From contig DUML01000026.1 in NCBI GenBank assembly GCA_012839895.1, forward strand, positions 1-36,655: 36,655 bases of DNA. The letters are read 5' to 3'. The number at the start of each line of letters is the position of its first letter. Within the stretch, counting starts at the first letter, position 1. Of the stretch, positions 4,426 through 36,451 are shown one piece after another. A program made the position numbers and the translations under genes. The notes beneath the pieces are model-generated. The model was not told where the DNA came from, searched no databases, and worked only from the letters and a program-made list of their open reading frames with translations. Origin of the DNA: Peptococcaceae bacterium (GTDB lineage: Bacteria > Bacillota > Desulfitobacteriia > Desulfitobacteriales > Syntrophobotulaceae).

Positions 4426-4431
4426 ATTCAG

Positions 4432-4897: not shown

Positions 4898-5054
4898 AAT
4901 TTAATATGACTCAAAAATTTTCAATGTGAATTGAACATTCTCCCAATAATTACATTTGTAAACCGTTTCTTTCATTCAATATAATTTTAGGGTAACTATA
5001 TGTAGCCTAATATCAAGGATTTTTCAAAAAAATATTGGAGAAAGAGATGTTGAA

Positions 5055-8090: not shown

Positions 8091-8144
8091 GATTAAAAGA
8101 AAAAACTATTCTTAAAACAACCTTTAGTGCGATACTATTATTAT

Positions 8145-8621
8145 TTAAAATATACGCATAAAGAAATAGATAATCATTAATACTTCAATGGCAAGTTTAA
8201 CTATTGTCCCGCCGAGGATGCCGATAATAGTTCCAAAACCTGCCCGGATAGCCTTGTCCGCTGCTGTCCCCCTTATGAGTTCTATGGCTACTGCTCCTAG
8301 AAAAGGGCCGAGAATAATCCCTAAGGGTCCGAAGAAAATACCGACAACAGCACCTGCTACTGCCCCCCAAGCGGCTTGTTTACTACCGCCAAAACGTCTT
8401 GTTCCCGCCGCCGAAGCCAGGTAATCGACAGCAAAGATAAGGATTAAGACCAAGGCTTGCAAAAGAAAAAAAGTTAGATCCAGGGTTGCAAATTTAGTCA
8501 GTAAGCCATAAAGAAGCATACCGCCATAAATAAGCGCTGCGCCGGGCAATAAGGGGAGGACAGTTCCGACGAGACCGGCGATAAAGAGAACAAACGTTAG
8601 GATTAAAGCAATGGTCTCCAA
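8145..8621 (-). CDS. DUF456 domain membrane protein
   Basis: A 158-residue, almost entirely hydrophobic protein matching the DUF456 family. The N-terminal segment contains the characteristic GLVGTVLPLLPG turn. A Gly-rich pair of membrane segments follows with GAVVGIFFGPLGIILGPFLGA (~90-110), and the C terminus is again hydrophobic. Four to five membrane spans are likely. The function of the family is unknown. A GGAGG-type site (AGGAGGTATTTTTTT on the coding strand) precedes the ATG. It is transcribed divergently from the MscS gene, and direct repeats in the shared intergenic region may be regulatory. Confidence 0.85.
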   Translation of the reverse strand: METIALILTFVLFIAGLVGTVLPLLPGAALIYGGMLLYGLLTKFATLDLTFFLLQALVLILIFAVDYLASAAGTRRFGGSKQAAWGAVAGAVVGIFFGPLGIILGPFLGAVAIELIRGTAADKAIRAGFGTIIGILGGTIVKLAIEVLMIIYFFMRIF

Positions 8622-8995
8622 AAAAATACCTCCTTATTAAAACCATAATTAAACAAAAATAAATCTTAGGATGAGAACAAAAATTAAATTTTATGAGAAC
8701 AAATAGTTCGAAAGAGATATTTTATCTGCAAATGGTAGAAAAACAAGTATTATAGATTTTTTTACATTGTTTCAAGTAAATAGCATAAGTAATTGGGGTT
8801 GTTCATAGATATTTTGAGATCTCTTTGATAATATTAAAATGCACTTACGAAATTGTTAATACGTTCAGTGTGGAGGACTTAACTTAATATGTCAAGTGGG
8901 AAAAGCTTAATATGTAACGCCAAATAATTTCTAAAGCTGTTACTGGAGAGTTGGGACATATTTTTTATTACTCCTGAATAAAGTGGAGGTAAGAA
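8622..8995. promoter_or_regulatory. Divergent intergenic region with two pairs of direct repeats
   Basis: This 374-bp AT-rich gap separates the DUF456 gene (minus) from mscS (plus). ATGAGAACAAA occurs at 8671-8681 and 8693-8703 (period 22), on the DUF456 side. CTTAATATGT occurs at 8883-8892 and 8906-8915 (period 23), on the mscS side. Periods near two helical turns fit operator half-sites on one DNA face. No protein-coding frame is visible. Confidence 0.35.
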
Positions 8996-16017: not shown

Positions 16018-16412
16018 AGCAATCCCCTTTACCTTTTCCGTTCTAAAGTTAGCTACCAGTTGTTTTTGTATATTACTACAGTATAATCCTATTTTGCTTT
16101 GAAGAAAAGATTTTCGGCTTGAGAATTTGTTGCTTACCATATTATTTATAAGCAAAAGGCATTATTAAAGTACCCATTTCCCGAGGATAATATTGGGATT
16201 AAAGTTTAAAATTATTATTTAGAGCAAATACTAACATATCATGCCCTAACCTATCTTAAAACCCTATGTTTTGGCCATCAGGGAGCAATACCCAAGGGGT
16301 TAATCTTTAAAAGGGTTTAATCTTTAAGGAGATGCGAAGTTTAAGGTAAACAAAGTTTTCGTTTATCGTGTTGTCGGTAATACTTGATAAATCTGCAGAA
16401 AAGGGTTTGGAT
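16018..16412. other. Divergent intergenic region between pyc and germination operon 1
   Basis: It holds a -10-like TATACT for pyc (minus strand, 16080-16085). On the germination side there is a direct repeat of TTAATCTTTAA (16300-16310 and 16317-16327, period 17). I found no convincing sigma-G promoter for the germination operon and no reading frame of note. Confidence 0.4.
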
Positions 16413-18272: not shown

Positions 18273-18356
18273 AGGTTATCATAAGGGTTATTAAAGGATT
18301 ATTTTAATTGTAAAAAACTCTCTGATAAAAAGCGATAAAAAGCTACCAATGAGGCG

Positions 18357-19508
18357 GTGGTTAGGATAATCAAGGAAGGTAAATTTGGTTTCCGGGAAGC
18401 TTTTGCTTTGCTCACAATTATGGAAATAACTAAAATTTTCTACACCAGTCCCCATGTAATTATTAAAGAACTGGGGACAGCGGCTTGGTACGCGACTTTA
18501 ATATCTTGTCTGACCAGCTTGCTTTTTTTCGGTCTTGTGTATCTTCTCCTGAAAAGGTTTCCGGGAAACGATCTTTATCAAGTTTTTGAAGCTGCCACCG
18601 GTCCCAAACTTGGGAAAATATTAATTCTAATTTTTGGCGTTTACTTTTTATACTATGCTGGAGTTAATATGGGGGAATTCACTATTATCCTAAAGGTCTA
18701 TAGTAAGCGCCTTACTCCTACGGAAATTCTTACGGTAGCTTTTCTCTTCGTATTAATAGCACAGGCTTATGTGGGACTGGAAGGTATAGCGAGAACAGCT
18801 TATGTATTTTTTTTCTTCATAATGGGTGGCCTGCTGCTCATTATTCTCTTGGCAATTCCCGCTTATGAGCTGGATTATTTAAAACCTTGGCTGGGGTACG
18901 GCCTGGATAAAACAATTCTCATTGGTATTCTCCGCTCTTCAGCCTATGATGAGATTATTGTCCTGGCGATTATCATTAACTCTATCCATGGCTTGAAGAA
19001 CTTTAAAAAAGTAGGGATAACGTGTTTAATATTTACCGGCTTGACTTTCAGCATTTGCCTGGCCTGTATCTTGGCAGCCTTTCAGTATACTGTGGCCAGT
19101 GAACACCTTTCAGGAATGTTTCAGTTATCGAGAATTATTTACTATTCTCGCTTTTTCCAGAGGGTGGAAGCCATTTTTCTCTTCATTTGGGTTTTTGCTT
19201 CTCTGATAACAGTCTCGCTGGCTTTTTATATGGCTTTAAGCTCGTACTGCCGAGCTTTTAAAATTAATAATCATAGGCCTCTTTTACTGCCATTTGCTTT
19301 CTTGGCTTTTACAGTGGCTTCTTGGCCTGATAATGTTGCCGAAGTTTTAGAGATTCATGTTAAACTAATTCGCCAGTACAGTTTTTTAATACTTTACTTC
19401 TTACCCCTTTTAGTTTTGGCTTGGTCTTTAATCACTGGGAAGAAAGGTGGTAAAGCCAGTGGCGAAAACCAAAATGCAAAACTTGAAAATGCCGGTCAAG
19501 GAAATTAA
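18357..19508 (+). CDS. GerB-family germinant receptor subunit B (spore germination permease), operon 1
   Basis: A 383-residue, ten-span membrane protein of the GerAB/amino-acid-permease-like (APC) superfamily, thought to bind the germinant in the spore inner membrane. The N-terminal KEGKFGFREAFALLTIMEITKIFYTSP is typical for the family. The GTG at 18357 gives the expected N terminus, but GAGG is only two bases from it, so the start is uncertain. The C-terminal tail is hydrophilic and overlaps the start of the GerC-type gene by 62 bases, indicating coupled expression. It shares an operon with the A subunit 84 bases upstream. Confidence 0.9.
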   Translation: MVRIIKEGKFGFREAFALLTIMEITKIFYTSPHVIIKELGTAAWYATLISCLTSLLFFGLVYLLLKRFPGNDLYQVFEAATGPKLGKILILIFGVYFLYYAGVNMGEFTIILKVYSKRLTPTEILTVAFLFVLIAQAYVGLEGIARTAYVFFFFIMGGLLLIILLAIPAYELDYLKPWLGYGLDKTILIGILRSSAYDEIIVLAIIINSIHGLKNFKKVGITCLIFTGLTFSICLACILAAFQYTVASEHLSGMFQLSRIIYYSRFFQRVEAIFLFIWVFASLITVSLAFYMALSSYCRAFKINNHRPLLLPFAFLAFTVASWPDNVAEVLEIHVKLIRQYSFLILYFLPLLVLAWSLITGKKGGKASGENQNAKLENAGQGN

Positions 19509-20793
19509 GGTTTTAGCTTATGTTTTATTGCTTGTTTTCCTGGCTCTTTTTTTGGCAGGCTGTTATGATGCCAAGGAAATTGACCAGGAAGTGTATGCTT
19601 TAGTAATCGGGGTGGATAAGGGAGTTAATAATGCCATCAGAATAACTTTTCAAGTTCCTACTTATAAAGATGGGGGACAGGGGGGAATGGGAGGCGGCGG
19701 AGGAGATGGTGACAACGGCACGGAAACCGGAGAATTAGACGGGACGGTAGTAGCCACGGTGGAAGCGCCTTCCTTGATTGAAGCTATAAATATCCTTAAT
19801 GCCACTTCTAATAGAATGATATCCCTTTCCCATGCCAAGATGCTGGTCTTTTCCGAAGAATATGCCCGGGAAGGAGTTGGCAGGTATATAGAGCCTTTAG
19901 CCAGGTTCCGGGAAGTCCGGGAGTTAATGAGAGTAGTGGTCTGCAGGGGGAAAGCAGAAGATTTTATTAAAGAAAACAAACCGGTTATTAGCCAAAATAT
20001 TGCCAAGGATATTGAGTTGTCATACTTGCAGTCTCAGAATACAGGTTATTTTCGGGATGTGTTTTTTACGGAATTCTATATTGACCTTTTAAGCCCTTAT
20101 GGCCAGCCTACAGCGATTTATGCGGGGGTGAATGAATTTGACCAAATGTTAGACTCAGAACCAGGTCTGTCAGCACCTCCAAAAACTTACTTGGATATTA
20201 AGCCTGGACTTATACCTCGGAAAGGCGGAAATAAAAAGGACTTGTTTGGGACTGCCGTTTTTGACGGTGATCGGATGGTTGGAAGCTTAAATCCGGAAGA
20301 AACCAGGTTTTTCCTGATGAGTATAGGAGAATTTGAACGCAGTTACTTTACTTTGGAGGACCAAAACAAACCTGGCTATATTTATGTTTTGGAAGTGACA
20401 GCAGTGTCCAAACCGCGGATTAAAGCTCGGATTGCCGACGGAGTGCCAGTCATTGACCTTTCGCTGGAACTCGATGCCGATCTGGCTTCGATTCAAAGCA
20501 GAATTAATTATGAAAAATCAGATCTTATTGAGGGCTTTGAGGCATATCTGGAAAGTTATTTTCAAAAAGGGATTAAGAATACTATAGAGAAAACCCAAAA
20601 GGAATTCGGGACGGATATCTTTCAATTTGGCAAGAAAATTGCCGGGAACTTTCGGACTATTCAGGAGTTTGAGGAATATAACTGGCTAAAGCATTATCCG
20701 GAAGCCGAGATTAATGTAAACGTCAAAGTAAATGTACGGCGTTCCGGCTACTTCTATGAAACTCATCATATTTTTTCAACCAAATTAGAATAA
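19447..20793 (+). CDS. GerC-family germinant receptor lipoprotein, operon 1
   Basis: A Ger(x)C subunit, a lipoprotein on the outer face of the spore inner membrane required for receptor function. The signal ends in the lipobox LAGC, with lipidated Cys at residue 39 if translation starts at the GTG at 19447 (AAGAAAG just upstream); later ATGs at 19474 or 19489 would also keep the lipobox. After YDAKEIDQEVYALVIGVDKG, the family opening, there is an unusual glycine-rich insertion at 76-91. The C-terminal domain ends with the family-typical stretch HYPEAEINVNVKVNVRRSG. The overlap with the B subunit supports a three-gene operon, A-B-C. Confidence 0.92.
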   Translation: MVKPVAKTKMQNLKMPVKEIKVLAYVLLLVFLALFLAGCYDAKEIDQEVYALVIGVDKGVNNAIRITFQVPTYKDGGQGGMGGGGGDGDNGTETGELDGTVVATVEAPSLIEAINILNATSNRMISLSHAKMLVFSEEYAREGVGRYIEPLARFREVRELMRVVVCRGKAEDFIKENKPVISQNIAKDIELSYLQSQNTGYFRDVFFTEFYIDLLSPYGQPTAIYAGVNEFDQMLDSEPGLSAPPKTYLDIKPGLIPRKGGNKKDLFGTAVFDGDRMVGSLNPEETRFFLMSIGEFERSYFTLEDQNKPGYIYVLEVTAVSKPRIKARIADGVPVIDLSLELDADLASIQSRINYEKSDLIEGFEAYLESYFQKGIKNTIEKTQKEFGTDIFQFGKKIAGNFRTIQEFEEYNWLKHYPEAEINVNVKVNVRRSGYFYETHHIFSTKLE

Positions 20794-20838
20794 CTTGCCT
20801 TAAATATGCCATATAGATTTGTCATTAAAATTTGTCAT

Positions 20839-20958
20839 CCTGAGCGTAAGCGAAGGATCTTGGGCAGCGAAGGCTTGTTCTGAGCGAAGTAAAGACCTAT
20901 CCTGAACGAAGCGAAAGAACTTTAGCATTAAAGTTTCTGAACGAAGTAGAGAAAGAAG
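20839..20958 (+). repeat. Cluster of degenerate GTCATCCTGAGCG-type repeats
   Basis: Four imperfect copies of a CTGAgCGAAGcgAAaGa-type unit lie at about 20839-20860, 20879-20898, 20901-20921 and 20937-20958. The first copy is preceded by TTTGTCATC, giving the widespread short-repeat form TGTCATcCTGAGCGnAAGCGAAGGATCT. A related copy in the opposite orientation is at 23868-23897. The origin is probably a small non-coding repeat element; no transposase is present. Confidence 0.6.
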
Positions 20959-20968
20959 GAAAGAGGCT

Positions 20969-21133
20969 TTGAAAATTTTTAGTATGCTAGTTGCTTTAGT
21001 CGGAAGTTATTACACTTTTACTTTCGGCCGGAGTTTATGGGTGGATGACAAGAATAAACTTGGTGGGTTCGGAGCTGTTTTAGCTGCGTTTGCCGGTGTT
21101 GCCGGGCTGTTTTTGCTCCTTTTTTACAAATAG
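20969..21133 (+). CDS. Small two-span membrane protein, unknown
   Basis: A 54-residue protein starting at TTG (20969), with AGGAAAGAGG ending two bases before it. There are two hydrophobic segments: KIFSMLVALVGSYYTFTFG (2-20) and a C-terminal span rich in Gly/Ala (~34-52). A short polar loop, WVDDKNKLGG, lies between them, and the protein ends FYK. No family is recognised. It lies between germination operon 1 and the SASP gene on the same strand, so expression in the forespore is plausible but not shown. Confidence 0.55.
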   Translation: MKIFSMLVALVGSYYTFTFGRSLWVDDKNKLGGFGAVLAAFAGVAGLFLLLFYK

Positions 21134-21222
21134 TGAATTGCCAACCAATAATTTGTCAGTATTTATTTTCAAAAAGAGTAAAGATTACTACTAATAAGAA
21201 ATTTTTAAAGAGGTGAAACAAA

Positions 21223-21399
21223 ATGGCTAAATTCAGGCCCCTTGCACCGGGACAAACAGCAAGCAGTGTTGAGCAACAAATGGGAATTCAGTTTTTTGAC
21301 GGGGATGCCGGAGATATTACTTCCCGTGAAGCGGGGAATATGGTTAAAAGAATGGTAAAGTATGCGGAAGAGCAACTTCAAAAAGGCCAAAAAATGTAG
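21223..21399 (+). CDS. Divergent alpha/beta-type small acid-soluble spore protein (SASP)
   Basis: A 58-residue protein whose second half, DGDAGDITSREAGNMVKRMVKYAEEQL, matches the C-terminal signature of alpha/beta SASPs (G-D-x-T-S-R-x-x-G...-x-x-K-R-M-V). Those proteins coat DNA in the dormant spore. The first half is shorter than usual. PLAPGQTASSVEQQMGIQF seems to replace the longer helix that carries the germination-protease site, and no clear protease site is visible. AAGAGGTG precedes the ATG. It sits with coat genes between two germination operons, in keeping with forespore expression. It could be a specialised SASP or a related regulatory protein. Confidence 0.7.
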   Translation: MAKFRPLAPGQTASSVEQQMGIQFFDGDAGDITSREAGNMVKRMVKYAEEQLQKGQKM

Positions 21400-21429
21400 T
21401 CCAAATAGATAGGCGTAAGGAGTTGAATT

Positions 21430-21645
21430 TTGTTGACCCAAACGGAAATAGCTCCCCATGAAGCATTTGAACTACATGAGCTTTTGCAGCTCAAAAACAG
21501 CTGTGCCCTGAAAGCTTCCGGTTTGACCAATGATATCTCTGATCCAAAACTTAGGGTAATTCTGGAAACCGATCTTAGGAATTCCCAAGAACAGATAAAG
21601 GAACTTCAAGAATTTATCCGGCAAGCGGTAAATCTTGCAGAGTAG
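21430..21645 (+). CDS. CotF-like spore coat protein, N-terminal-type half
   Basis: A 71-residue helical protein that starts at TTG (21430), with AAGGAG ending eight bases before. The segment HEAFELHELLQLKNSCALKA with the following SDPKLRVILETDLRNS resembles the N-terminal CotF-like helical unit of spore coat proteins. The next gene has the full Coat_F domain. In Bacillus the CotF protein is made as one chain and cleaved; here the two parts are separate genes 26 bases apart. Its location is presumably the spore coat. Confidence 0.7.
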   Translation: MLTQTEIAPHEAFELHELLQLKNSCALKASGLTNDISDPKLRVILETDLRNSQEQIKELQEFIRQAVNLAE

Positions 21646-21671
21646 GAAAGAGAGTTAGGGAGACTGATGAA

Positions 21672-22031
21672 ATGGTTAATATTATTCAGGATGTGGCAGG
21701 TGTAGACTTTATGACCGAAAAAGACATCGTGCTGGAAATGCTCCTGACTTCCAAAAATGTTTTAAACCGCTATTGTACTGCAATTGGCGAGTCGACTACT
21801 CCTCAGGTAAGGGAAACCTTAAAGAAGCATTTAAATCAAATAATAGATATTCATGGACAGATCATGGACTTTGCCGTGGAAAAGGGTTATTATAAGCCCT
21901 TTAATCCACCGGAACAATTCAAAGATGACTTGAAAAAAGCTTATGTGGCCTTGGATCTTGAGCCCTGGAAGTTACAGCCAAGCGAGGAGTTTTTCGGTCC
22001 TAAGAGGGATATACCTATTGTAAGGTCATAA
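21672..22031 (+). CDS. CotF-family spore coat protein
   Basis: A 119-residue protein with a complete Coat_F-type domain at ~14-75. The run MTEKDIVLEMLLTSKNVLNR, then RETLKKHLNQIIDIHGQIMDF and EKGYY, is the classic ferritin-like helical pattern with an ending Gly-Tyr-Tyr. GGGAG (21657-21662) is placed for the ATG at 21672. The C-terminal 40 residues are extended and Pro-rich. It is the last gene of the SASP/coat group; a terminator follows after 73 bases. Confidence 0.85.
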   Translation: MVNIIQDVAGVDFMTEKDIVLEMLLTSKNVLNRYCTAIGESTTPQVRETLKKHLNQIIDIHGQIMDFAVEKGYYKPFNPPEQFKDDLKKAYVALDLEPWKLQPSEEFFGPKRDIPIVRS

Positions 22032-22104
22032 AGCGAACAAAATACAATCATAACGTAGGGCCAATCCTAAGAAAAGTATGTCTCCGGTTCAGAGGCATTT
22101 AGTT

Positions 22105-22142
22105 AACCAAGCAGACCCCAAGACAGGTCTGTTTGGTTTTTT
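22105..22142 (+). terminator. Terminator of the SASP/coat gene group
   Basis: AACCAAGCAGACC (22105-22117) pairs with GGTCTGTTTGGTT (22126-22138) over 13 positions with one G-U wobble and an 8-nt loop. Six T's follow. Confidence 0.88.
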
Positions 22143-22175
22143 CATGGGAATAAAAAAAGAAGGCTGCGGGAGAAT

Positions 22176-22205
22176 AAATATTTAGAAGCAAAATATTGCA
22201 TAATA
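22176..22205 (+). promoter_or_regulatory. Candidate forespore sigma-G-type promoter for operon 2
   Basis: CATAATA at 22199-22205 matches the sigma-G/F -10 pattern CATWHTA exactly. AAATA (22176-22180), 18 bases upstream, matches four of five positions of the -35 form GHATR. Transcription would start around 22212, so translation must begin at the ATG at 22229. Forespore control fits known germination operons. Confidence 0.45.
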
Positions 22206-22228
22206 GGCAAGATAATGAAGAGGTAACT

Positions 22229-23836
22229 ATGTTTTCTTGGCTAAAAAGAAAATATAAGTTCTTAAAAACTATGGCTCAAGCTAACCAACAAAAGAATGAG
22301 CAACCCCAAGCGGAAAAAATCCCTCAATCCTTTCCGGAGTTAAGAGCCAAACTTCAGCAGGTTTTTGCGGAATGCGGTGATTTCAAAACCAGAGAAATAT
22401 TGGTTGGCGATGAACATTACAGATTAATTATTGCTTGGATGGATAATCTCGCCAGTAATCAAATTTTACATGAAAGCTTAATAAGACCTTTATTAGAGCC
22501 ACAAGCTTTTTGTCAATTCTTAGAAGATAAAGAAGAGGACTTGGCGGTATTCCTTAAAAATAATGTCTTGATTGCAGCTGAGCTGAAAGAAGTAACCGAC
22601 TTTAACCAGACAGTGGAATTTATACTTTGCGGCGAAAGTGTCATTTATATTGAAGGAAGCAGTACCGCTTTAGCTGCGGCGACCAGAGGCTGGGAGACCC
22701 GGACTGTAACTGAGCCGGAGACAGAGACTGTAGTGCGCGGTCCGCGCGAAGGGTTTGTGGAAGACCTGGCGGTAAATTGCGCTTTGCTTCGCCGCAAAAT
22801 TAAAAACCCCAATCTAAAGATGGAAATGATGAAGATTGGCCGCCAGACTAAAACAACAGTTTGTGTTTGCTATTTGAAAGGAATTGCCGATCCTGCCTTA
22901 GTACAGGAAGCCAAAACCAGGCTACAGAAAATAAACATCGATGCCGTCCTGGAGTCTGGTTACTTGGAAGAGATGATCGAAGATGCGCCTCTTTCATTTT
23001 TCCCGACTGTTGGCAACAGTGAGAAACCTGATGTTGTAGCGGCCAAAATCCTGGAAGGGCGAGTAGGCATTTTTTGTGACGGAACGCCTTTTGTCCTGAC
23101 TGTTCCCTATTTATTTTTAGAGACCCTGCAGGCCAGCGAAGATTATTATACCAGGGCAATCAGTTCCAGCCTGCTGCGCACTGTAAGAATAATCTGCTTC
23201 TATGTCTCAATCCTTTTACCCGGTCTTTATGTGGCTTTTTTAAATTTTCACCAATCTGTTCTTCCGTTAAATTTTTTGCTCACAATCGCTGCAAGCAGAG
23301 AAAGTATTCCTTTTTCTCCTTTTACTGAAGCCTTGTTTATGGGCATAACTTTTGAAATCTTGCAGGAAGCCGGGATAAGAATGCCTAGACCGATTGGGCA
23401 ATCCGTGAGTATTGTAGGAGCGCTGGTTATCGGAGAAGCCTCAGTCCGGGCCGGCTTGGTCAGCGATCCTATGGTCATAATTACAGCTCTTACTGCTATC
23501 AGCACTTTTATCCTTCCCCCTTTGCAGCGGGTTTTGCCGTTTTTCCGCTTTGGCTTTACCATTGCTGCCAATATTCTGGGTTTATTAGGAATTTTTTTCT
23601 TCCTTATCGCTTTGGTAATCCACTTGTGTACACTCCGTTCTTTTGGGATTCCCTATTTAGCGCCTTTAGCCCCTTTGTCTCTCTCGGATATTAAAGATAC
23701 CTTTGTCAGGTTTCCTCTATGGACTATGCTAACCAGACCTAGAGACTTAACTTGGCCGGAAACCGGGCAGGCGGCTAAATACAGGGCGGGAGCGGAACAA
23801 TTGCTGTCTAAAATGCGAAAAAAAGAAGACCGCTGA
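22229..23836 (+). CDS. GerA-family germinant receptor subunit A, operon 2
   Basis: A 535-residue Ger(x)A subunit. The frame extends to a TTG at 22196, but GAAGAGG (22217-22223) and the sigma-G-like promoter argue for 22229. The N-terminal disordered tail is short compared with the operon 1 paralogue. Family signatures are RGPREGFVEDLAVNCALLRRK (about residues 169-189) and VLESGYLEEMIEDAPLSFFPT. The C-terminal half has several membrane spans, including LFMGITFEILQEAGIRMPRP and LRSFGIPYLAPLAPLS at the end. It heads an A-C-D-B operon. The paralogue lies 6 kb upstream, so the cell can build at least two receptors from this locus. Confidence 0.93.
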   Translation: MFSWLKRKYKFLKTMAQANQQKNEQPQAEKIPQSFPELRAKLQQVFAECGDFKTREILVGDEHYRLIIAWMDNLASNQILHESLIRPLLEPQAFCQFLEDKEEDLAVFLKNNVLIAAELKEVTDFNQTVEFILCGESVIYIEGSSTALAAATRGWETRTVTEPETETVVRGPREGFVEDLAVNCALLRRKIKNPNLKMEMMKIGRQTKTTVCVCYLKGIADPALVQEAKTRLQKINIDAVLESGYLEEMIEDAPLSFFPTVGNSEKPDVVAAKILEGRVGIFCDGTPFVLTVPYLFLETLQASEDYYTRAISSSLLRTVRIICFYVSILLPGLYVAFLNFHQSVLPLNFLLTIAASRESIPFSPFTEALFMGITFEILQEAGIRMPRPIGQSVSIVGALVIGEASVRAGLVSDPMVIITALTAISTFILPPLQRVLPFFRFGFTIAANILGLLGIFFFLIALVIHLCTLRSFGIPYLAPLAPLSLSDIKDTFVRFPLWTMLTRPRDLTWPETGQAAKYRAGAEQLLSKMRKKEDR

Positions 23837-23867
23837 GACTTATCCTTCGTAATGGTCTATGCAAGTA

Positions 23868-23969
23868 TCTTTCGGGCAAAGTCCTTAGGATGACATGTTT
23901 TTCGTGAGTCATCCCGTGAAGGCTTTCAAATGCCTTCACGCGCAGTGAAAGATCTTAAGCCATCGGGAT
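23868..23969 (-). repeat. Related intergenic repeat and nested hairpins
   Basis: TATCTTTCGGGCAAAG and AGGATGACA (~23868-23897) correspond to the complement of the repeat at 20839-20860, in opposite orientation and degenerate. GGATGAC (23888-23894) pairs with GTCATCC (23908-23914). GTGAAGGC (23916-23923) pairs with GCCTTCAC (23932-23939). ATCCCG (23911-23916) pairs with CGGGAT (23964-23969). The structures lie between the A and C genes of operon 2 and may shape the mRNA or reflect insertion of a small element. Confidence 0.5.
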
Positions 23970-23991
23970 AACAATAAGGAGCAAAGGTAGT

Positions 23992-25206
23992 ATGATGTTG
24001 GACTTAGGTAAAAACAGTTTAAAAAATATTTCTCTGAGAAGTGCTTCTTTAATAATTTTGGTATTTTTCTCTCTTACAGGCTGTTGGGACAACAAAGATG
24101 TGACGGAAATTAATCTTATTACTGCTGTCGGGGTTGATAAAACAACAGATGGGAGGGTAGAGGTTACTTTTGAGATTCCAAGGCCAAGCCTGACTAGGAC
24201 CGGCCAGGCCGGGGCGGGCGGTGGAGAAAACAGCCGCGAAAAAGCTGTCAGTTTGGTATCTTCTAAAGGTGATACAGCTTTTATTGCCGTCCGCAGCATG
24301 GTGGAAAAACTGGCGAAAGATATTTTCCCCTCTAAAATGGAGCTATTGTTAATTGGTGAAGATTTGGCCCGGGCCGGATTACAGGAAGTCTTTGATTTAA
24401 TGGAGAGAGATCCGGAATCCAACATGACCGCTAAGGTTCTGTTGGTGAAAGGGGCGCCGGTCAAGCAAGTTATGGAAGCGGAAAGCGAACAGGAGAAAAT
24501 ACCTTCCCTGCACCTTGTTAAATCTATTACCGTTAATCAAGACACTTTTGGCAGCAGTAAGGAAGCTAGGGTTATTGATATTTTAAGAGAAGTAGCACTG
24601 CCGGGAAAAGATCCCCTCATCCCGGTGGTAGAGATTTTGGAGGAAAAGGAGAATTTAAAAGTTAAAAATATTTTGGTGTCGGGCAGTGCCGCTTTTAGGG
24701 GAGATAAATTGGTCGGTTATCTTACAGCAACTGAGACCAGGGGTTGGCTCCTTGCTGAGAATAAAATTAAAGCCAGTGTTTATTCCTTGCCCAGCCCTAA
24801 CGATGAAACAAAGAATATCTCTTTTGAAATGTATTGTGAAAATGGCCAAAAAAAAGTTGAGTTCATTGAAGGCAAGCCTAAACTTGTAATCAAAATCAAA
24901 GCAACCGGCGATATTGGGGAAAGCCAGGAGCCAACGGATCTCACCCAACCGCAGATGCTCAAAAAACTGGAAAATAAGATCAAACAAATTATTACAGAAG
25001 AGGTAAACAGTGCTTTAAATTCAGCTCAAAAATATCATAGCGACATTTTTGGTTTTGGAGATATTATTCATCGAAAAAACCCTCAGGAGTGGCAGAAAAT
25101 AAAGGATAATTGGCCTGAAATCTTTAGTAAAGCCCCAACGGAGATAACAGTTGAAGTCAAGCTGAAAAGATCAGGTTATACCCGCAAAGGTGTAGAACCA
25201 CTGTAA
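23992..25206 (+). CDS. GerC-family germinant receptor lipoprotein, operon 2
   Basis: A 404-residue Ger(x)C lipoprotein. The signal peptide has hydrophobic core SASLIILVFFSL and lipobox LTGC, lipidated Cys31 (30 if the second ATG at 23995 is used). AAGGAG (23976-23981) and AAAGG lie ahead of the starts. The family opening WDNKDVTEINLITAVGVDK follows at once. The C terminus ends with KAPTEITVEVKLKRSGYTRK. A short Gly-rich stretch, QAGAGGGEN, occupies the position where the operon 1 paralogue has its longer glycine run. Here C follows A directly, with B last, unlike operon 1. Confidence 0.92.
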   Translation: MMLDLGKNSLKNISLRSASLIILVFFSLTGCWDNKDVTEINLITAVGVDKTTDGRVEVTFEIPRPSLTRTGQAGAGGGENSREKAVSLVSSKGDTAFIAVRSMVEKLAKDIFPSKMELLLIGEDLARAGLQEVFDLMERDPESNMTAKVLLVKGAPVKQVMEAESEQEKIPSLHLVKSITVNQDTFGSSKEARVIDILREVALPGKDPLIPVVEILEEKENLKVKNILVSGSAAFRGDKLVGYLTATETRGWLLAENKIKASVYSLPSPNDETKNISFEMYCENGQKKVEFIEGKPKLVIKIKATGDIGESQEPTDLTQPQMLKKLENKIKQIITEEVNSALNSAQKYHSDIFGFGDIIHRKNPQEWQKIKDNWPEIFSKAPTEITVEVKLKRSGYTRKGVEPL

Positions 25207-25251
25207 ATTTAGCAGTCTGTTTTAACTGTCAAGGGTTGTGAGGTATGGTAA

Positions 25252-25485
25252 GTGGCCTTAAATATCATCTTGCTCGTAATAATTGCAATCATTATGGTTC
25301 TCTTGGATTTACCGGGATTGTTAAAAATTGAAAAGAAAAATAAAATTAAGGTTTTAATCAGCTATTTTCTCCTGCTTTTAACAGGCTTTACTTTAGGATT
25401 ATTGTTAATCCTGGAAAGGGAACCGGTTAGTCCGACTGTGATAATCGAAAGAATGCTGAACTTAATTTTAGGGATTGGCTTATGA
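25252..25485 (+). CDS. Small GerD-subunit-like membrane protein
   Basis: A 77-residue protein with two membrane spans (about 2-22 and 33-53) joined by a basic loop, KIEKKNKIKV. The start is GTG with TGTGAGGT about eight bases before. The stop overlaps the start of the next gene by four bases (ATGA), so expression is coupled. Small two-span D subunits modulate some Bacillus receptors (GerKD, GerUD types). Position in the operon and topology suggest the same role here, but sequence similarity alone is too low to be sure. Confidence 0.65.
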   Translation: MALNIILLVIIAIIMVLLDLPGLLKIEKKNKIKVLISYFLLLLTGFTLGLLLILEREPVSPTVIIERMLNLILGIGL

Positions 25486-26549
25486 TGACAAATGTAAAAA
25501 TTTCCGGCTATCAATTGGCTTTATTAATAATGGGTTTTCTTTTTGGGAGTACCGCGGTTTTAAACCCGACTGCAATGGCCGGCCAGGATGCCTGGTTGGC
25601 CTATATCTTAGCCTGGGTGGGGGGGTTTATGCTAATCTGGCTTTATGTCCGAATCGCGTTAATTAATCCTTCCCTGACCCTGGTGGAAATCCTGAAAGTG
25701 ACTTTTGGCAAGTACCTTGGTACTGTTATCGCTTTACTGTATATCTGGTATTTTCTGCATCTCGCGGCACTCGTTCTCCGGGATTTTGGCGAACACATGA
25801 ATGTTACGGTTTTCTATCGAACTCCTATGACTTTTATCATCAGTTGTTTTGCCCTGCTTATTGCCTATTGCCTGCGGAAGGGGCTGGAAGTGACCGGGAG
25901 AGCGGCTGAAATCCTGATGCCATATCTATTCATCTTCGTAATAATTATTTTCTTTTTGCTCATTCCTGAATATGATACGAATAACTTATTTCCTTTCTTA
26001 GAAAAGGGTCTAACCCCTGTAATTCAAGTTGCTTTTGGAGTTTTAACTTTTCCTTTTGGGGAAACGGTCACTTTCTTAATGATTTTTCCGGCACTTTATT
26101 CGCCGGGTCAGTTAAAAAAAGTTTCTTTTGCAGCCTTTGGGGTAATGGGGTTTATTATTTTGGGTATTATTGTCCGCGACCTTTTGAGTTTGGGACCTGA
26201 TCTTTTGACTAGACTAGTCTTCCCGCCAAGCCTCAGCACGGAGTTAACTCCGGAGCTCCAATTGGAGCCTTTGATCTCTGTCAACTTTTTGCTCGGAGGG
26301 TGGGTTAAAATTACAGTTTGTTTGTATGCTGCTCTTGTAGGAATTGCCCAGCTTTTAGGCCTTAATGATTATAAGCATTTGGTTTTACCCTTAGTTCTCT
26401 TAGCTGTAGGCTTGGCAATGTGGCTGTATGAAGATCTTTTTAAGATGATGGATTGGACGGCTAATGTGTATCCTTATTATGCTTTCCCTTTACAGTTTGG
26501 GATTCCACTCCTTATCTTGCTTGTTGCCAAAATTAGAAAGCTAGCGTAA
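25482..26549 (+). CDS. GerB-family germinant receptor subunit B (spore germination permease), operon 2
   Basis: A 355-residue, ten-span protein of the GerAB family. The N terminus, KISGYQLALLIMGFLFGSTAVLNPTAMAGQDAWLA, is characteristic, including the conserved sequence before the AGQDAW turn. Later sections are FPFGETVTFLMIFPAL and the ending YPYYAFPLQFGIPLLILLVAKIRKLA. The start codon overlaps the stop of the small D-like gene. It is the last subunit of the A-C-D-B operon. Sequence differences from the operon 1 B subunit suggest a different germinant. Confidence 0.92.
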   Translation: MMTNVKISGYQLALLIMGFLFGSTAVLNPTAMAGQDAWLAYILAWVGGFMLIWLYVRIALINPSLTLVEILKVTFGKYLGTVIALLYIWYFLHLAALVLRDFGEHMNVTVFYRTPMTFIISCFALLIAYCLRKGLEVTGRAAEILMPYLFIFVIIIFFLLIPEYDTNNLFPFLEKGLTPVIQVAFGVLTFPFGETVTFLMIFPALYSPGQLKKVSFAAFGVMGFIILGIIVRDLLSLGPDLLTRLVFPPSLSTELTPELQLEPLISVNFLLGGWVKITVCLYAALVGIAQLLGLNDYKHLVLPLVLLAVGLAMWLYEDLFKMMDWTANVYPYYAFPLQFGIPLLILLVAKIRKLA

Positions 26550-31044: not shown

Positions 31045-31093
31045 TTGTCGAAAAACTGGTTTTTATTTGATTAATAATTATTTAGATTCGACA
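31045..31093. promoter_or_regulatory. Two inverted Spo0A-box-like sites before the sensor kinase
   Basis: TGTCGAA (31046-31052, in the context TTGTCGAAA) and its exact complement TTCGACA (31087-31093) face each other 34 bases apart. They lie 78 bases before the kinase start at 31171. TGTCGAA is the core of the Spo0A binding box. This suggests control of the kinase and possibly the whole agr locus by the sporulation master regulator. Confidence 0.5.
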
Positions 31094-31170
31094 GATTAAA
31101 TCTTTCTTTTTGGTAAAAACTTCATTAAAATTAATGTTATAAGAAAAAATATTAATTGGTGGAATGGAAA

Positions 31171-32982
31171 TTGGTAAACAACAAATCAATTATTCAATCC
31201 ACATTTATAAAGATTACTGTCTCAATTTTTGCTATTCTGTTAATACTTTATTTTTTTTTGGCTAGGATTTATTGGAATAATGAGGTCTTAACCAGAGAAC
31301 TGGAGCTTTTAACAGTCGCTTCTAAAATGGAAACAGTAATCGAGAACAATTATCAAAGCATTTTGGGTATTAAAACAAATAAAAACCTAAATGATTCTCA
31401 AAAGTATGAGCAAATAAATAATTTATTTGAAGTTTTTTTTGACAAGCTCTCCCAGGATTATAAAAATATCCAGCTCGGCTATTATGACCTAGAATTAAAC
31501 CAAATGGTGTTTTACCCCCGGGCAGAAAATGATAATTTAATTTCTGACCTCGGGCTGAAGACAAATAACGGCTTATTATTGGAAGAGGCAACTGTTCCCA
31601 GGTTTATTTCCGATGTGGAAGTCTTTCGTTGGGATGGGAAGGGAATTATTGCCGCAGTTGTCCCGGTTTGTTACAAGGGTGAAATCGTTGGCCAGACTTG
31701 GGCAATGTTAAAAGCAGAAGAAATATATCATCAGTCTTATCTTAGCTACAGTAAGTATTTTATTCCCAGTCTAGTAATTATAATCCTGGTTCTCTTTCTA
31801 ATTGATAAGAATTTAGTTAAGATTAAATACGCCTTGGATGATTTTACGGCAGCTATTATTAATGATAGACCTGCCAATCTAGATAAGTTTAATTTACCGG
31901 AGCTTTGGCCGGTATATGAAAAAATTCATAATTACCTTGCAAATTTAAAACTTTTAAATGAACGTCTTGAGGAATCAAATACCAAATTAATTACTATTAT
32001 GCAAGGGATTGCCGACGGCTTCTTTTCTTTGGACAGGCAGTGGTGTTTTACCTTTGTAAATGAAGAGGCTAAAAGGCTGTTAAAAAAAGAACAGAATGAC
32101 TTACTAGGGAAATGCGTTTGGGATGAACTCTTAAATTTTTTGCCGGAAAAAACTGTTCATAACCTCCGTCAGGCAATGGAACAGAATATTACTCGGCATT
32201 GGGAAGAAAAGCTCTTCCCCGAAGCAAGGTGTTATGAATTTTATGCTTATCCATTTGTTCAAGGGTTAAATGTTTTCTTCCGGGATATTACTGAATTGAA
32301 GCAGAAAGAACAAGAACTCTCCAGGCTGGAAAGACTCAATTTAATTGGTCAAATGGCGGCTGGAATCAGCCATGAGGTCCGCAATCCCTTAACTACGGTT
32401 AGAGGATTCCTACAAATGCTGGAAGAGAAAACAAACTGTTCCCGTAATAAAGAATACATGGAAATAATGATTTCTGAGATTGACCGGGCCAATGGGATAA
32501 TAACTGACTTCTTATCCCTGGCTAAGTCCAATTCCGACAGCACCAAAATTGAGGATATCAACGAAATAATTTCCCGTTTATACCCAATGCTTCAGGCAGA
32601 TGCCTTTAATGACAGTAAAGAAATAGTTATTAACTTAGGCCAAGTTCCTCTTTTGGAATTGAATCGCTCTGAGATTAAGCAGCTAATTTTAAATCTGGTG
32701 CACAACGGCCTGGAAGAAACACCGGTGGGGGGCAAAGTTGAAATTAGTACATATTTAGAAGATGATAGGGTAGTATTAGCCATTAGAGATGAAGGAAAGG
32801 GGATACCGGAAGATATTCAGGAAAAAATTGGTACACCCTTTTTTACTACTAAAGAAACAGGGACTGGATTAGGTTTGGCTATTTCTATAGGGATTGCCCG
32901 GCGTCATCAAGCTCATTTTAGATTTCAAACAGGCCCAAACGGGACGACCTTTTACATTAGCTTTCCAATTCCAGGGAAATAG
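31171..32982 (+). CDS. Orphan PAS-domain sensor histidine kinase (sporulation-kinase-like)
   Basis: A 603-residue membrane kinase. From the TTG at 31171 (GGTGG, 31158-31162, fits this start better than the TTG at 31156), a span lies at ~12-32. An extracytoplasmic sensor region of ~160 residues of Cache type follows, then a second span at ~197-213. A PAS domain is at ~275-375. The HisKA region contains AAGISHEVRNPLTTVRGFLQ with phospho-acceptor H401, and the ATPase has NLVHNGLEE, DEGKGI and TGTGLGLAI. No response regulator gene is adjacent. The HEVRNPLT-type phosphoacceptor segment and layout resemble kinases that feed Spo0A. Spo0A-box-like sites upstream and the AgrBD locus downstream make a peptide-influenced sporulation kinase attractive, but that is inferred. 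Confidence 0.9.
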   Translation: MVNNKSIIQSTFIKITVSIFAILLILYFFLARIYWNNEVLTRELELLTVASKMETVIENNYQSILGIKTNKNLNDSQKYEQINNLFEVFFDKLSQDYKNIQLGYYDLELNQMVFYPRAENDNLISDLGLKTNNGLLLEEATVPRFISDVEVFRWDGKGIIAAVVPVCYKGEIVGQTWAMLKAEEIYHQSYLSYSKYFIPSLVIIILVLFLIDKNLVKIKYALDDFTAAIINDRPANLDKFNLPELWPVYEKIHNYLANLKLLNERLEESNTKLITIMQGIADGFFSLDRQWCFTFVNEEAKRLLKKEQNDLLGKCVWDELLNFLPEKTVHNLRQAMEQNITRHWEEKLFPEARCYEFYAYPFVQGLNVFFRDITELKQKEQELSRLERLNLIGQMAAGISHEVRNPLTTVRGFLQMLEEKTNCSRNKEYMEIMISEIDRANGIITDFLSLAKSNSDSTKIEDINEIISRLYPMLQADAFNDSKEIVINLGQVPLLELNRSEIKQLILNLVHNGLEETPVGGKVEISTYLEDDRVVLAIRDEGKGIPEDIQEKIGTPFFTTKETGTGLGLAISIGIARRHQAHFRFQTGPNGTTFYISFPIPGK

Positions 32983-33118
32983 AAAATTTATAAGCGGATA
33001 ATTAATCAGGAAAAATTTTAGGACAAAAGTATTATTTTTCCGCATAACAAGGAAAATTGAAAAAAATATAGAATAGATTATAGAATATTTGTAGGAAATC
33101 GATATTGTGGAGGAAACA

Positions 33119-33574
33119 ATGAAAATACCATTTTTAGCATTTGTCTTACAAGGTATCCCGGAAAGTATTGCCATGGTTACGCTGGCTTTTGTTATTGCCC
33201 GTATTCCTCTTCAGTGGAAAAAAATAATAGCCATTGGTCTAATAATGGCCACAACGTCTTATATTTTAAGGCTTTTTCCAATCACCTTCGGCATTCATAC
33301 TGTTTTGTTAATAGTCTTGCTCTTTATTTTACTTATCCGTGTAGAAAGAACTAACATTAATGCGTTATTGATCTCCAGCCTGCTAAGCCATTTAGTTGTT
33401 ATTATTGCTGAGACAATATGTTTAGGATTATTAATGTCACTTCTTCATATTTCTTTTGAAGTTCTTTATAACAATGTCGCTCTAAGAATTTTAATGACTT
33501 TACCCCAGGTTATATTGATCTTTATTATTGCTTATATTACTTTAAAAATTCGTTCTAAGAAAGGAAAATTTTAA
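33119..33574 (+). CDS. Kinase-less membrane sensor-like protein, copy 1
   Basis: A 151-residue protein with four to five membrane spans and almost no soluble part. An ideal GGAGGAA (33109-33115) places the start at the ATG at 33119. With the next gene it shares QGIPE at the N terminus, then the motifs FGIHT, SFEVL and RIL-T-PQV near the end. The arrangement resembles the membrane sensing domain of clostridial AgrC/GHKL-type kinases, but the kinase part is absent. Its position just before AgrB and AgrD suggests detection, transport or processing of the peptide. The function is inferred from context and topology. Confidence 0.7.
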   Translation: MKIPFLAFVLQGIPESIAMVTLAFVIARIPLQWKKIIAIGLIMATTSYILRLFPITFGIHTVLLIVLLFILLIRVERTNINALLISSLLSHLVVIIAETICLGLLMSLLHISFEVLYNNVALRILMTLPQVILIFIIAYITLKIRSKKGKF

Positions 33575-33626
33575 TTTAGGTTTAAATTATTATGTTTACT
33601 ATAAATGAGAGGAAAAGGAGAAAGAA

Positions 33627-34094
33627 ATGGTGATCCCATTTCCAGCTTTAATATTCCAAGGGATTCCTGAACAGATAGCTCTTGTGACTTTAGCTTTTGT
33701 TCTGGCTAAGCTTAAGTTAGAATGGCCAAAAATCATTCTTTTTGCTATGGTCTTAACTTTTACTGCTTATTTTATTAGGTATTTTTCGCCAACCTTTGGT
33801 ATTCATACTATTGTTCTTATGGGTATGTTATTTATCTTCTTTGTCGAAAGATATAATGTTCCGGTAATAAAGTCCCTTAAGATATCGGTATCAGTTGCAG
33901 TTATTTTAATTATCACCGAGTCAATTCTCTTAAACTCATTAATGAAGCTTTTCAGTCTATCTTTTGAGGTACTTAATGAGAACATAATATATAGAATCTT
34001 AATTACTTGGCCACAAGTTCTAATTTTATTTTTATTGTCTTTTATTATCATTATTTGGCGAAGGAGAAAAGAAAAATCAAATGAAACTTTCTGA
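33627..34094 (+). CDS. Kinase-less membrane sensor-like protein, copy 2
   Basis: A 155-residue paralogue of the preceding gene: the opening is FPALIFQGIPEQIALVTLAFV, there is a central SPTFGIHT, and the C-terminal SFEVLNENIIYRILITWPQV matches copy 1. It has four to five membrane spans, with a basic tail (WRRRKEKSNETF). AAGGAG (33615-33620) precedes the ATG. It overlaps the AgrB start by 14 bases, so translation is coupled to agrB. Two tandem copies may form a heteromeric receptor, or one may be specialised. No database evidence was available. Confidence 0.7.
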   Translation: MVIPFPALIFQGIPEQIALVTLAFVLAKLKLEWPKIILFAMVLTFTAYFIRYFSPTFGIHTIVLMGMLFIFFVERYNVPVIKSLKISVSVAVILIITESILLNSLMKLFSLSFEVLNENIIYRILITWPQVLILFLLSFIIIIWRRRKEKSNETF

Positions 34095-34665
34095 AATAAG
34101 TGAGCGTATTTCTGAGAGTTTAACACGAGAATTAGACTACAGCGAAGACAAAAAAGAAATTGTTACATATGGCATAGAGACAGCTCTTTTGACTGTCTTA
34201 GGATTCCTGGCAATTATTGCTTTAGCCTTCTTATTTAACGCTGTTGTACCGGCAATTATCGCCGCCTTGTTTGGTGGGGTATTACGGCGCTTGTCCGGAG
34301 GCGCTCATTTTGACACACCTTTGAAATGTTTGACTTTTGGTGCGGTTGTTTATGCCTTGATTGGGGTTGCGGCAAAAGAATTGCTCAAGTATGAATTATA
34401 CAGCACAACGCTGGCCGTAGTGATTTTATTAATAGCCTTGATTGTTATGGTAATCCTTGCCCCGGTAGATTGTGAAGCTAAACCTATTCATTCCCGGGTT
34501 TTAAAAAGAAATTTGAAGATTTCTTCCGTAGCCTTTGTCCTTCTTACCATGGGAATAATTCTTTTTAGCGGTAATACTGTCCTAAATACCAGTGCAGTTT
34601 TGGGAGTATTTTACCAGACTATGACCCTACTGCCGGTATTTAATAATAAAAAAAAGGAGGGTTAA
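34081..34665 (+). CDS. agrB: AgrB-like peptide maturation protease
   Basis: A 194-residue integral membrane cysteine endopeptidase that removes the C-terminal tail of AgrD and cyclises the peptide. The catalytic dyad is present: H76 in SGGAHFDTP and C83 in LKC, the same spacing as H77 and C84 of S. aureus AgrB. It has about five membrane spans after a charged N-terminal amphipathic region. It overlaps the upstream gene by 14 bases, and agrD begins two bases after its stop, so the set is a single operon. Confidence 0.95.
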   Translation: MKLSEISERISESLTRELDYSEDKKEIVTYGIETALLTVLGFLAIIALAFLFNAVVPAIIAALFGGVLRRLSGGAHFDTPLKCLTFGAVVYALIGVAAKELLKYELYSTTLAVVILLIALIVMVILAPVDCEAKPIHSRVLKRNLKISSVAFVLLTMGIILFSGNTVLNTSAVLGVFYQTMTLLPVFNNKKKEG

Positions 34666-34667
34666 GG

Positions 34668-34790
34668 ATGAAAAAAATAGTTTACACCCTGATTACATCC
34701 GCAATTGTACTTCTTGCTACAGCTAGTTCCGTATTTGCCTGCATTTACTGGGCTTATCAACCCAAAGCACCTAAGTCTTTGCAAAAATAA
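34668..34790 (+). CDS. agrD: AgrD-like cyclic lactone autoinducer precursor
   Basis: A 40-residue precursor. AAGGAGG (34654-34660) sits seven bases before the ATG. Residues 1-24 form a basic and hydrophobic leader ending SSVFA. They are followed by the signal core CIYWA at 25-29 and a tail YQPKAPKSLQK, matching the C-x-x-x-x-YQPK-x-PKSL form of clostridial cyclic lactone peptides. By analogy with five-residue rings such as that of C. perfringens, the mature signal would be a thiolactone between Cys25 and Ala29; the exact ring and any exocyclic tail need chemical proof. A strong stem-loop follows two bases after the stop. Confidence 0.93.
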   Translation: MKKIVYTLITSAIVLLATASSVFACIYWAYQPKAPKSLQK

Positions 34791-34791
34791 G

Positions 34792-34818
34792 AATAAGGTG
34801 GGGTATCCCCACCTTATT
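34792..34818 (+). terminator. Stem-loop after agrD (attenuator or terminator)
   Basis: AATAAGGTGGGG (34792-34803) pairs perfectly over 12 bp with CCCCACCTTATT (34807-34818) across a 3-nt loop. The following CTTTGAG is a poor T tract. It may partially terminate, raising agrD over the downstream c-di-GMP gene, or stabilise the upstream mRNA. Confidence 0.6.
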
Positions 34819-34834
34819 CTTTGAGAGGGATAAT

Positions 34835-36451
34835 ATGCTGCATGATGACAAACAAAAACAAGAAAAATATATTCTCGCTTCGCAGGTAATCTCCTTTTGT
34901 TTGCTGGCCATGCTTATTTTGGTTGCTGTCAGTTTTAAAGATCAGTTAACGTATGAAATTGGATATTACCATTCCACCCTTATGTTTTTTGTGGTTTTAC
35001 CGCTGATTGTTTTAATAAGGTTATTAAGCATTCATTATAATAATAAACTAATAGACTACAGTGTAAATAGTTTCTTTTATCTGGTTTCGGCTATTTTTTT
35101 AATATATTTAAACAATAATGCTTTTCAAATTTTGCTAATAATGCCGGTTATTAGTATGGCTTTAAAATATGGTACCAAGCATTCTATCTATACGGTATTA
35201 TGCTCTTTGGTTGTTTTATTGTTTGTCAGCGATAAGAGAAATTTTACTTCTATCGACAGTGACCTGATGTACTGTATAGTATTTATACTGGTGGCTTGGC
35301 TTCTCGGGAATATGCGAGAATCAGAAATGGATATTGAAAAAAAACTGGAGAGATTAGCCCATTACGATGGTTTGACAGACCTCCTTAACCACCGGTCTTT
35401 TCAGCGTATCCTGGAATTGGAGCTTCAGAACGCCGAAAAGAACAAGTCCAGTTTAAGCTTAATTATGTTGGATTTAGATTATTTTAAAATATATAATGAC
35501 TCGTTTGGCCATCAAAAAGGGGATTTGGTTTTACGGCAAGTAGCGGGAATTCTAAAAGATGCTACGCCTTCCAATTGTTATTGTGCCAGGTATGGCGGGG
35601 AAGAGTTTGCTTTAATTTTGCCGGGTATATGTATTGAAATGGCTAAAAGGGTAGGAGAGAACATAAGGAGAAAAATTGAAGAGACTGTTTTTCCTGGCAT
35701 GGAGCTTTTGCCCAAAGGCAAGCTTACCATGTCCGTTGGTATTGCTGAGTATCCTACCATGGCCAACAATAAGGAAAAATTAATCCAAAAAGCGGATGAA
35801 GCCTTATATAAGGCCAAATTTGTCAGCAAAAACAAAGTGGAGACATATTATTCAGTTTTTGATGAATTAAGCCTTGGTTTAATGGAAGAGGAAAGGGATA
35901 TTTTTAATTCTATCCGCACCCTGACCATGGTGATTAATGCCAAAGATAAGTATACTTACGGCCATTCTGAAAGGACTATGCAATTAGCCCAAAAACTCGG
36001 TAAAAGAATAGGTCTGGAGCAAGAGAGCCTGAAAGAGCTCATCTATAGCGCTTTGCTGCATGATATCGGCAAAATTGAAGTGGCTAGGGAGATATTGAAC
36101 AAACCGGGTAAGCTTAGCGAAGAAGAATGGGCAGTGCTTAAACAGCATCCTCAGTGGGGAGCAGATATAATCAGGCCGTTAAAATCTTTAAAAGGTATGG
36201 CCGACATTGTCCGCTTCCATCATGAAAATTATGATGGAAGCGGTTATCCGTTAGGCTTAAAAGGAGAGGAAATTCCTCTAGGGGCACGTATTTTAAGAAT
36301 TATTGACAGTTTTGATGCCATGACCACTATCCGCCAGTATAAGGAAGGTATGACAAAAGAGCAAGCTTTAGAAGAACTTAAAAATTTAACCGGGCGGTAT
36401 TATGACCCTAATCTGCTGGCTGAATTCCTAGCAATGATGCAAGAAGTCTAA
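34835..36451 (+). CDS. Membrane-bound GGDEF and HD-GYP protein
   Basis: A 538-residue protein with about six hydrophobic segments (~12-160), a GGDEF domain and a C-terminal HD-GYP domain. GGDEF makes c-di-GMP from GTP: metal site DLDYFKIYND at 213-222 and signature GGEEF at 254-258, an active variant. The usual RxxD inhibitory site before the signature is replaced by a TPSN region, so feedback inhibition is unlikely. HD-GYP degrades c-di-GMP: HD 409-410, HHENYDGSGYP 462-472. Both catalytic sets look intact. The start is supported by GAGAGGG eleven bases before. The position right after AgrBD, with a stem-loop between, suggests that quorum state may influence c-di-GMP level. Confidence 0.93.
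   Translation: MLHDDKQKQEKYILASQVISFCLLAMLILVAVSFKDQLTYEIGYYHSTLMFFVVLPLIVLIRLLSIHYNNKLIDYSVNSFFYLVSAIFLIYLNNNAFQILLIMPVISMALKYGTKHSIYTVLCSLVVLLFVSDKRNFTSIDSDLMYCIVFILVAWLLGNMRESEMDIEKKLERLAHYDGLTDLLNHRSFQRILELELQNAEKNKSSLSLIMLDLDYFKIYNDSFGHQKGDLVLRQVAGILKDATPSNCYCARYGGEEFALILPGICIEMAKRVGENIRRKIEETVFPGMELLPKGKLTMSVGIAEYPTMANNKEKLIQKADEALYKAKFVSKNKVETYYSVFDELSLGLMEEERDIFNSIRTLTMVINAKDKYTYGHSERTMQLAQKLGKRIGLEQESLKELIYSALLHDIGKIEVAREILNKPGKLSEEEWAVLKQHPQWGADIIRPLKSLKGMADIVRFHHENYDGSGYPLGLKGEEIPLGARILRIIDSFDAMTTIRQYKEGMTKEQALEELKNLTGRYYDPNLLAEFLAMMQEV

Follow-up and report, generated by a model that had tools for sequence, protein, structure and literature searches.

How is a peptide signal perceived and passed on at an Agr-type locus that encodes AgrB and AgrD, together with neither the kinase part of AgrC nor an AgrA regulator? 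The question is raised by six consecutive plus-strand genes (31156-36451) on contig DUML01000026.1 of a Peptococcaceae bacterium (GenBank assembly GCA_012839895.1), whose 36,655 nucleotides are called the window here. These genes encode, in order, a histidine kinase (HK), two small membrane proteins (S1 and S2), AgrB, AgrD and a GGDEF/HD-GYP protein. We regard it as fairly probable that they form an Agr operon in which free five-helix AgrC sensor subunits serve as the receptor and drive separate outputs. In the mechanism that we infer, AgrB would mature AgrD to a cyclic peptide, which S1 and S2 would bind at the membrane; contacts within the membrane would then relay the signal to output proteins that are separate from S. 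Of these, the orphan kinase would feed the Spo0F-Spo0B-Spo0A sporulation relay, and the GGDEF/HD-GYP protein, through its PilS-like domain of six transmembrane (TM) helices, would lower cyclic di-GMP (c-di-GMP).

The family calls for the open reading frames of the window are based on Pfam and NCBIfam profile searches, which recognise the kinase (PAS_4, HisKA and HATPase_c), AgrB, AgrD and the GGDEF/HD-GYP protein. A preliminary description of this DNA had proposed a six-gene unit on the plus strand, and all six reading frames are present in the order that it gave; its values for the overlap between S2 and agrB (14 bases) and for the gap between agrB and agrD (2 bases) are exact. The gene set was thus borne out, with the correction that the unit was given a start, 31045, some 110 bases ahead of its first gene. 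The features of the locus are the following.

31156..32982, plus strand: HK, orphan sensor histidine kinase (TM, Cache-type extracellular domain, TM, PAS_4, HisKA, HATPase_c)
33119..33574, plus strand: S1, stand-alone AgrC-type sensor module with five TM helices and without a kinase, as assigned by homology and AlphaFold
33627..34094, plus strand: S2, second stand-alone AgrC-type sensor module (47% identity to S1; same family profile)
34081..34665, plus strand: AgrB, peptide-processing membrane protease (PF04647, E 1.1e-38)
34668..34790, plus strand: AgrD, pheromone precursor of 40 residues, MKKIVYTLITSAIVLLATASSVFACIYWAYQPKAPKSLQK (TIGR04223, 33.4 bits, cut-off 19)
34791..34819, no strand: perfect 13-bp hairpin directly 3' of agrD, terminator- or attenuator-like
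34835..36451, plus strand: GGDEF/HD-GYP protein (PF00990, 6e-43; PF13487, 3e-41)
34835-35326, plus strand: six-TM PilS-like membrane domain of the GGDEF/HD-GYP protein (164 N-terminal residues)

The start codon of HK is uncertain, being TTG at 31156 or a codon up to 15 bases downstream (31156-31171). For S1, ATG at 33119 is the probable start, with the better Shine-Dalgarno sequence (GGAGG) and a product of 151 residues; GTG at 33107, upstream, is also possible.

The S proteins and their AgrC relatives

S1 and S2 have no significant match in Pfam or NCBIfam, the search profile of their family, built from 29 members, found no match in the PDB with HMMER, and Foldseek with the S model returned nothing significant, so that the family assignment rests on fused relatives. 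AlphaFold predicts S1 confidently as a membrane protein of five long helices (pLDDT 93.5, pTM 0.88). Within the phylum, the profile has matches in 145 of 398 genomes and in 110 of 267 genera, mostly in free frames of 150-200 residues and in some cases in frames of 440-496 residues. In all 20 of the fused relatives that were examined, S occupies residues ~1-145 and a GHKL kinase residues ~165-445, and most of them adjoin AgrB and/or a LytTR regulator and belong to AgrC/AgrA-type systems. Further fused AgrC-type cases are present at loci L080-L082, and the kinase of L080 matches the solved structures of S. aureus AgrC (6e52 and 4bxi). At 14 loci, AgrC is split into an S gene and a gene for a GHKL kinase bearing an N-terminal membrane segment. 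Residues P18, E19, R55 and H64 are invariant across the S alignment, two split-AgrC members included. On the strength of the fused S-GHKL kinases and the split loci, S is a true homologue of the AgrC sensor, equivalent to its first five TM helices. The resemblance of the small proteins to kinase-less AgrC sensor domains, which had been noticed from the window alone, is thus shown by the fused relatives to be homology. Plasmid and phage collections searched for S yielded one match, an S-type protein of 35% identity at 13973-14389 of a 27-kb plasmid record assigned to 'Klebsiella' (NZ_CP061968.1), where the gene is probably clostridial contaminant DNA.

S1 and S2 might instead be relics, the true receptor being a classical GHKL AgrC with its LytTR regulator encoded elsewhere in the genome. 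The preliminary description had itself named such a pair as a possible responder to this peptide; we looked for one in the genome and found no complete AgrC/AgrA pair, nor is there an AgrA-type LytTR response regulator within the locus. The HATPase_c_5 matches of the genome are DcuS/CitA-like or other kinases and one contig-end fragment, and its LytTR regulators, as far as a partner could be identified, stand beside 7TMR-DISM-like kinases. The relic reading can draw on a frame-broken, truncated GHKL-type kinase fragment at the end of contig C97 (166-470; L149), the sole candidate in this genome for what is left of a further AgrC-like kinase, and on the state of the assembly; with 132 contigs and a completeness of about 99%, the assembly may lack such a pair, although this is improbable. 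It is opposed by the absence of a regulator directly beside the C97 fragment and by the genome-wide search, in which the only AgrB and the only two S-type domains were those of the window and no fused S was found. The conservation of S with invariant residues across the phylum is also unlike that of a relic, and we hold this explanation to be very improbable.

Gene order and the shared six-TM domain

Genomes of the same family repeat the order HK-S-(S)-AgrB-AgrD-GGDEF/HD-GYP (L034/L050, L035/L051, L036/L052, L055 and L056), and L233, from a distant family, has the window order with another kinase sensor domain (six-TM kinase, S, AgrB, AgrD, six-TM GGDEF/HD-GYP protein). This recurrence, both within the family and in L233, places the gene order far beyond chance. 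Conservation of the order, a check already proposed from the window, thus holds within the family, and single elements of the order turn up in many families. Shorter versions are found in genus g3 of the same family (HK-S-AgrB-AgrD) and in Desulfosporosinus and its relatives (S-(S)-AgrB-AgrD-HK), both without a GGDEF/HD-GYP gene, and further loci have the order S-AgrB-AgrD-GGDEF/HD-GYP. At L048, two divergent S units stand back to back (4272-6712 and 7004-10063), with S and a six-TM HisKA kinase on one strand and S, AgrB and a six-TM GGDEF/HD-GYP protein on the other.

As a free gene, S is spread over many families of the Bacillota and behaves as an interchangeable sensor module, combined with one of three outputs: a GHKL kinase, a HisKA kinase or a GGDEF/HD-GYP enzyme. 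We classified 118 loci, picked for S, fused-S or six-TM matches and with a few duplicates among them, so the counts are not prevalences: S accompanies a HisKA kinase in 34, a GGDEF/HD-GYP protein in 23 and both in 8, while 14 have the split S and GHKL genes, 22 a fused AgrC, and 6 AgrB with a GGDEF/HD-GYP protein and no recognised S, the rest being cut or unclear. In the S tree the output types cluster yet switch repeatedly, with 28 changes against 68 in shuffles.

New here, together with the Spo0-type residues of the window kinase, the hairpin after agrD and the better conservation of HD-GYP than of GGDEF, is a six-TM PilS-like domain that is common to the GGDEF/HD-GYP protein and many S-linked kinases. 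The N-terminal domain of the window enzyme has homologues at the N-termini of HisKA and hybrid kinases that, in other families, are linked to S, and hhalign aligns the domains of enzymes and kinases with a probability of 99.8% (E 3e-29). The Pfam family PF25323 (6TM_PilS) is matched by 5 of 17 family members, the best at 3.8e-7; the window member itself does not match it, but sits in the same alignment as the members that do and matches the A3 profile built from that alignment. Strong occurrences of the domain, taken as the 75 places with at least 60 bits in the phylum search, fall into two groups. For 55, a same-strand S gene is listed no more than 4 kb away; the other 20 were inspected singly, and 13 of them adjoin S, AgrB or AgrD, six are unlinked and one is at the edge of a contig, which puts 68 of the 75 at agr loci. 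Exchanged between the two kinds of output, kinase and c-di-GMP enzyme, and rarely found outside agr loci, the six-TM domain would be the natural partner of S, which it may contact physically.

In the window enzyme, the motifs RYGGEEF, HD and HHENYDGSGYP are intact, and the GGDEF domain has no I-site. We compared 41 proteins that combine the six-TM domain with a match to GGDEF or HD-GYP: 37 retain the GYP motif, and 31 retain the GGDEF motif. Since HD-GYP is better conserved than GGDEF, the conserved activity is more likely to be hydrolysis of c-di-GMP than its synthesis, and the output is probably that of a phosphodiesterase.

The closeness of S to agrB can also be read differently. S would then assist AgrB, by exporting or processing the peptide or by protecting the cell from it, and would not be a receptor, while the kinase and the c-di-GMP enzyme would sense signals of their own and merely be co-transcribed. 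The 14-base overlap of S2 with agrB, the near-constant adjacency of S and agrB, and the Cache domain on the kinase all fit such a role. It is opposed by the identity of the S domain with the sensor half of fused and split AgrC kinases, by the restriction of the six-TM domain largely to agr loci, and by three loci (L175, L184 and L185) at which S stands beside a six-TM kinase with no AgrB found nearby, an arrangement that links S with the output and not with AgrB. We judge a service role for S to be distinctly unlikely.

The window kinase and the reach of S

The preliminary description had presented HK as a PAS sensor kinase without a response regulator, from which the receptor would be split. 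It is indeed an orphan with a PAS_4 domain, and no response-regulator (REC) neighbour was found beside it, but it carries a Cache-type extracellular domain of its own and is not simply receptor-less. The AlphaFold model of its N-terminal part (pLDDT 74) is a TM-Cache-TM sensor with WalK as the best PDB match, and the relatives of HK in Desulfosporosinus likewise have a TM-Cache-TM sensor and no six-TM domain. A six-TM domain on the window kinase was considered and rejected, the sensor being of the Cache type.

The H-box of HK, HEVRNPLTTVRGFLQM, gives the specificity residues TTGFQM. These are identical to those of the D. acetoxidans orphan kinases Dtox_0091, Dtox_2569 and Dtox_3834, which are predicted to feed Spo0F, and the sister kinase Dtox_1918 (TTGFQL) of this organism, Desulfotomaculum acetoxidans, was shown to do so (PMC6136694). 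The genome has 18 HisKA places, with a readable H-box pattern in 8, and the T-x-G-F-Q-x type is seen only in kinases without a neighbouring regulator; most of the other S-linked orphan PAS kinases have specificity residues of the same type. Spo0F (L150, 48% identical to the B. subtilis protein), Spo0A (L151) and Spo0B (L252, beside obg) are all encoded in the genome. The earlier suggestion of a Spo0 output gains support from these specificity residues and from the encoded phosphorelay, and the window kinase probably feeds the Spo0F-Spo0B-Spo0A relay. The host is a spore-forming bacterium, and two GerA-type spore-germination gene sets (GerAA/AB/AC-like) lie elsewhere in the window, at 16368-26549.

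Since HK brings a Cache-type sensor domain of its own, it may not be under the control of S. S could then be the receptor for the six-TM enzyme only, the Cache kinase answering another cue as an independent sporulation input in the operon. This would agree with the linkage of S to the six-TM domain, which is the strongest association observed, and with the lack of that domain in the window kinase. However, Desulfosporosinus and its relatives, as well as genus g3, keep S with a Cache kinase and without any GGDEF/HD-GYP gene, and the S1 orthologues group with the S proteins of the g3 kinase-only loci (98% local support), which makes a restriction of S to the enzyme unlikely in our view. A division of labour, with S1 for the kinase and S2 for the c-di-GMP enzyme, is partly supported by the S tree; it does not fit L051 and L061.

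Returning to free S subunits as receptors for both outputs, several observations weigh against this reading. The Cache-type sensor domain of the window kinase makes the link between S and the kinase the weaker one, and about six of the six-TM proteins are located away from any agr gene. Receptors and outputs are unequal in number, with one S and two outputs at L051 and two S and one kinase at L061. Finally, at a few agr loci a six-TM GGDEF/HD-GYP gene stands beside agrB and agrD (L195) or agrB (L211) with no recognisable S; here either S may have diverged or the six-TM domain may be able to act alone.

The proposal can be widened, tentatively and with slightly less than even credence, to a plug-in role for the peptide-binding half of AgrC across Bacillota: as a receptor subunit it would dock on PilS-like six-TM or Cache domains, drive kinases and c-di-GMP phosphodiesterases directly, and account for the missing receptors of agrBD loci without agrCA. 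If this is true, a quorum-sensing peptide would set the level of a second messenger and act on the Spo0 relay with no need for AgrC, AgrA or transcription, an Agr-type peptide would act directly on c-di-GMP enzymes, and one receptor subunit would have been exchanged among three output types in evolution.

Known systems, pheromone and hairpin

With the canonical agr system (AgrBDCA, S. aureus type), the window locus shares AgrB and AgrD as well as the TM sensor of AgrC. Unlike it, the locus lacks the AgrC kinase part and AgrA, the candidate receptor consists of one or two separate small proteins, and signal output would fall to a HisKA kinase together with a c-di-GMP enzyme. As the AgrC kinase and AgrA, two of the features that define canonical agr, are missing, we call the system a receptor-subunit variant of Agr signalling, which is real and widespread. 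The clostridial agrBD loci (C. difficile Agr1, C. perfringens agrBD, C. botulinum agr-1/agr-2) are alike in being linked to sporulation and in having no adjacent agrC/agrA. In C. perfringens, agrBD is co-transcribed with two upstream genes of unknown function (CPE1563/CPE1562), which were needed in the complementing plasmid (PMC2706048), and VirS is proposed as the receptor (PMC7492741); the receptor of C. difficile AgrD1 is described as unidentified (PMC10602386, PMC8534292). In several studied clostridia, then, the Agr peptide promotes sporulation, yet no agrC/agrA is adjacent, and a widespread receptor-only protein beside agrB, with a kinase whose specificity suits the Spo0 relay, offers a concrete candidate receptor class. 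The open-access papers that were searched describe neither free AgrC sensor proteins nor an agr-GGDEF/HD-GYP operon, and subscription literature may hold an earlier mention.

The Spo0 orphan kinases (B. subtilis KinA-E and those of Desulfotomaculum acetoxidans) resemble the window kinase in its orphan state, PAS domain and TTGFQM residues, whereas the latter belongs to an operon for peptide signalling that also has possible receptor subunits. WalK (YycG) is a kinase modulated by the small accessory membrane proteins YycH/YycI and shares the Cache-type extracellular domain; in contrast to HK, it is essential and paired with WalR, and YycH/YycI are unrelated to S. PilS (6TM_PilS, PF25323), which also has an N-terminal domain of six TM helices, interacts directly with the membrane protein PilA (PMC6058289). 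Whereas PilA is the partner of PilS, the partner proposed here is an AgrC sensor module, and the outputs are c-di-GMP turnover and kinase activity. Kinases with a PilS-like six-TM domain away from any agr gene are found at L200, L201, L204 and L210.

By analogy with the AgrD peptide of C. thermocellum (PMC5322536), the peptide of the window probably forms a CIYWA thiolactone ring from C25. AgrD relatives keep the leader and the YQPK.P..L tail and differ at the four positions that follow the ring cysteine, the pattern that a diversifying pheromone would show. The hairpin, which was absent from the preliminary description, lies between agrD and the GGDEF/HD-GYP gene and resembles a leaky terminator that separates the signal genes from the output gene; its probable role is to hold expression of the output enzyme below that of the signal genes. 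A significant hairpin, defined by z below -2 within 55 bases of agrD, follows agrD in 49 of 70 loci (median z -3.5), with stem sequences that differ. Its position is thus conserved across the relatives and its sequence is not, and in several Desulfosporosinus loci it is placed slightly further downstream.

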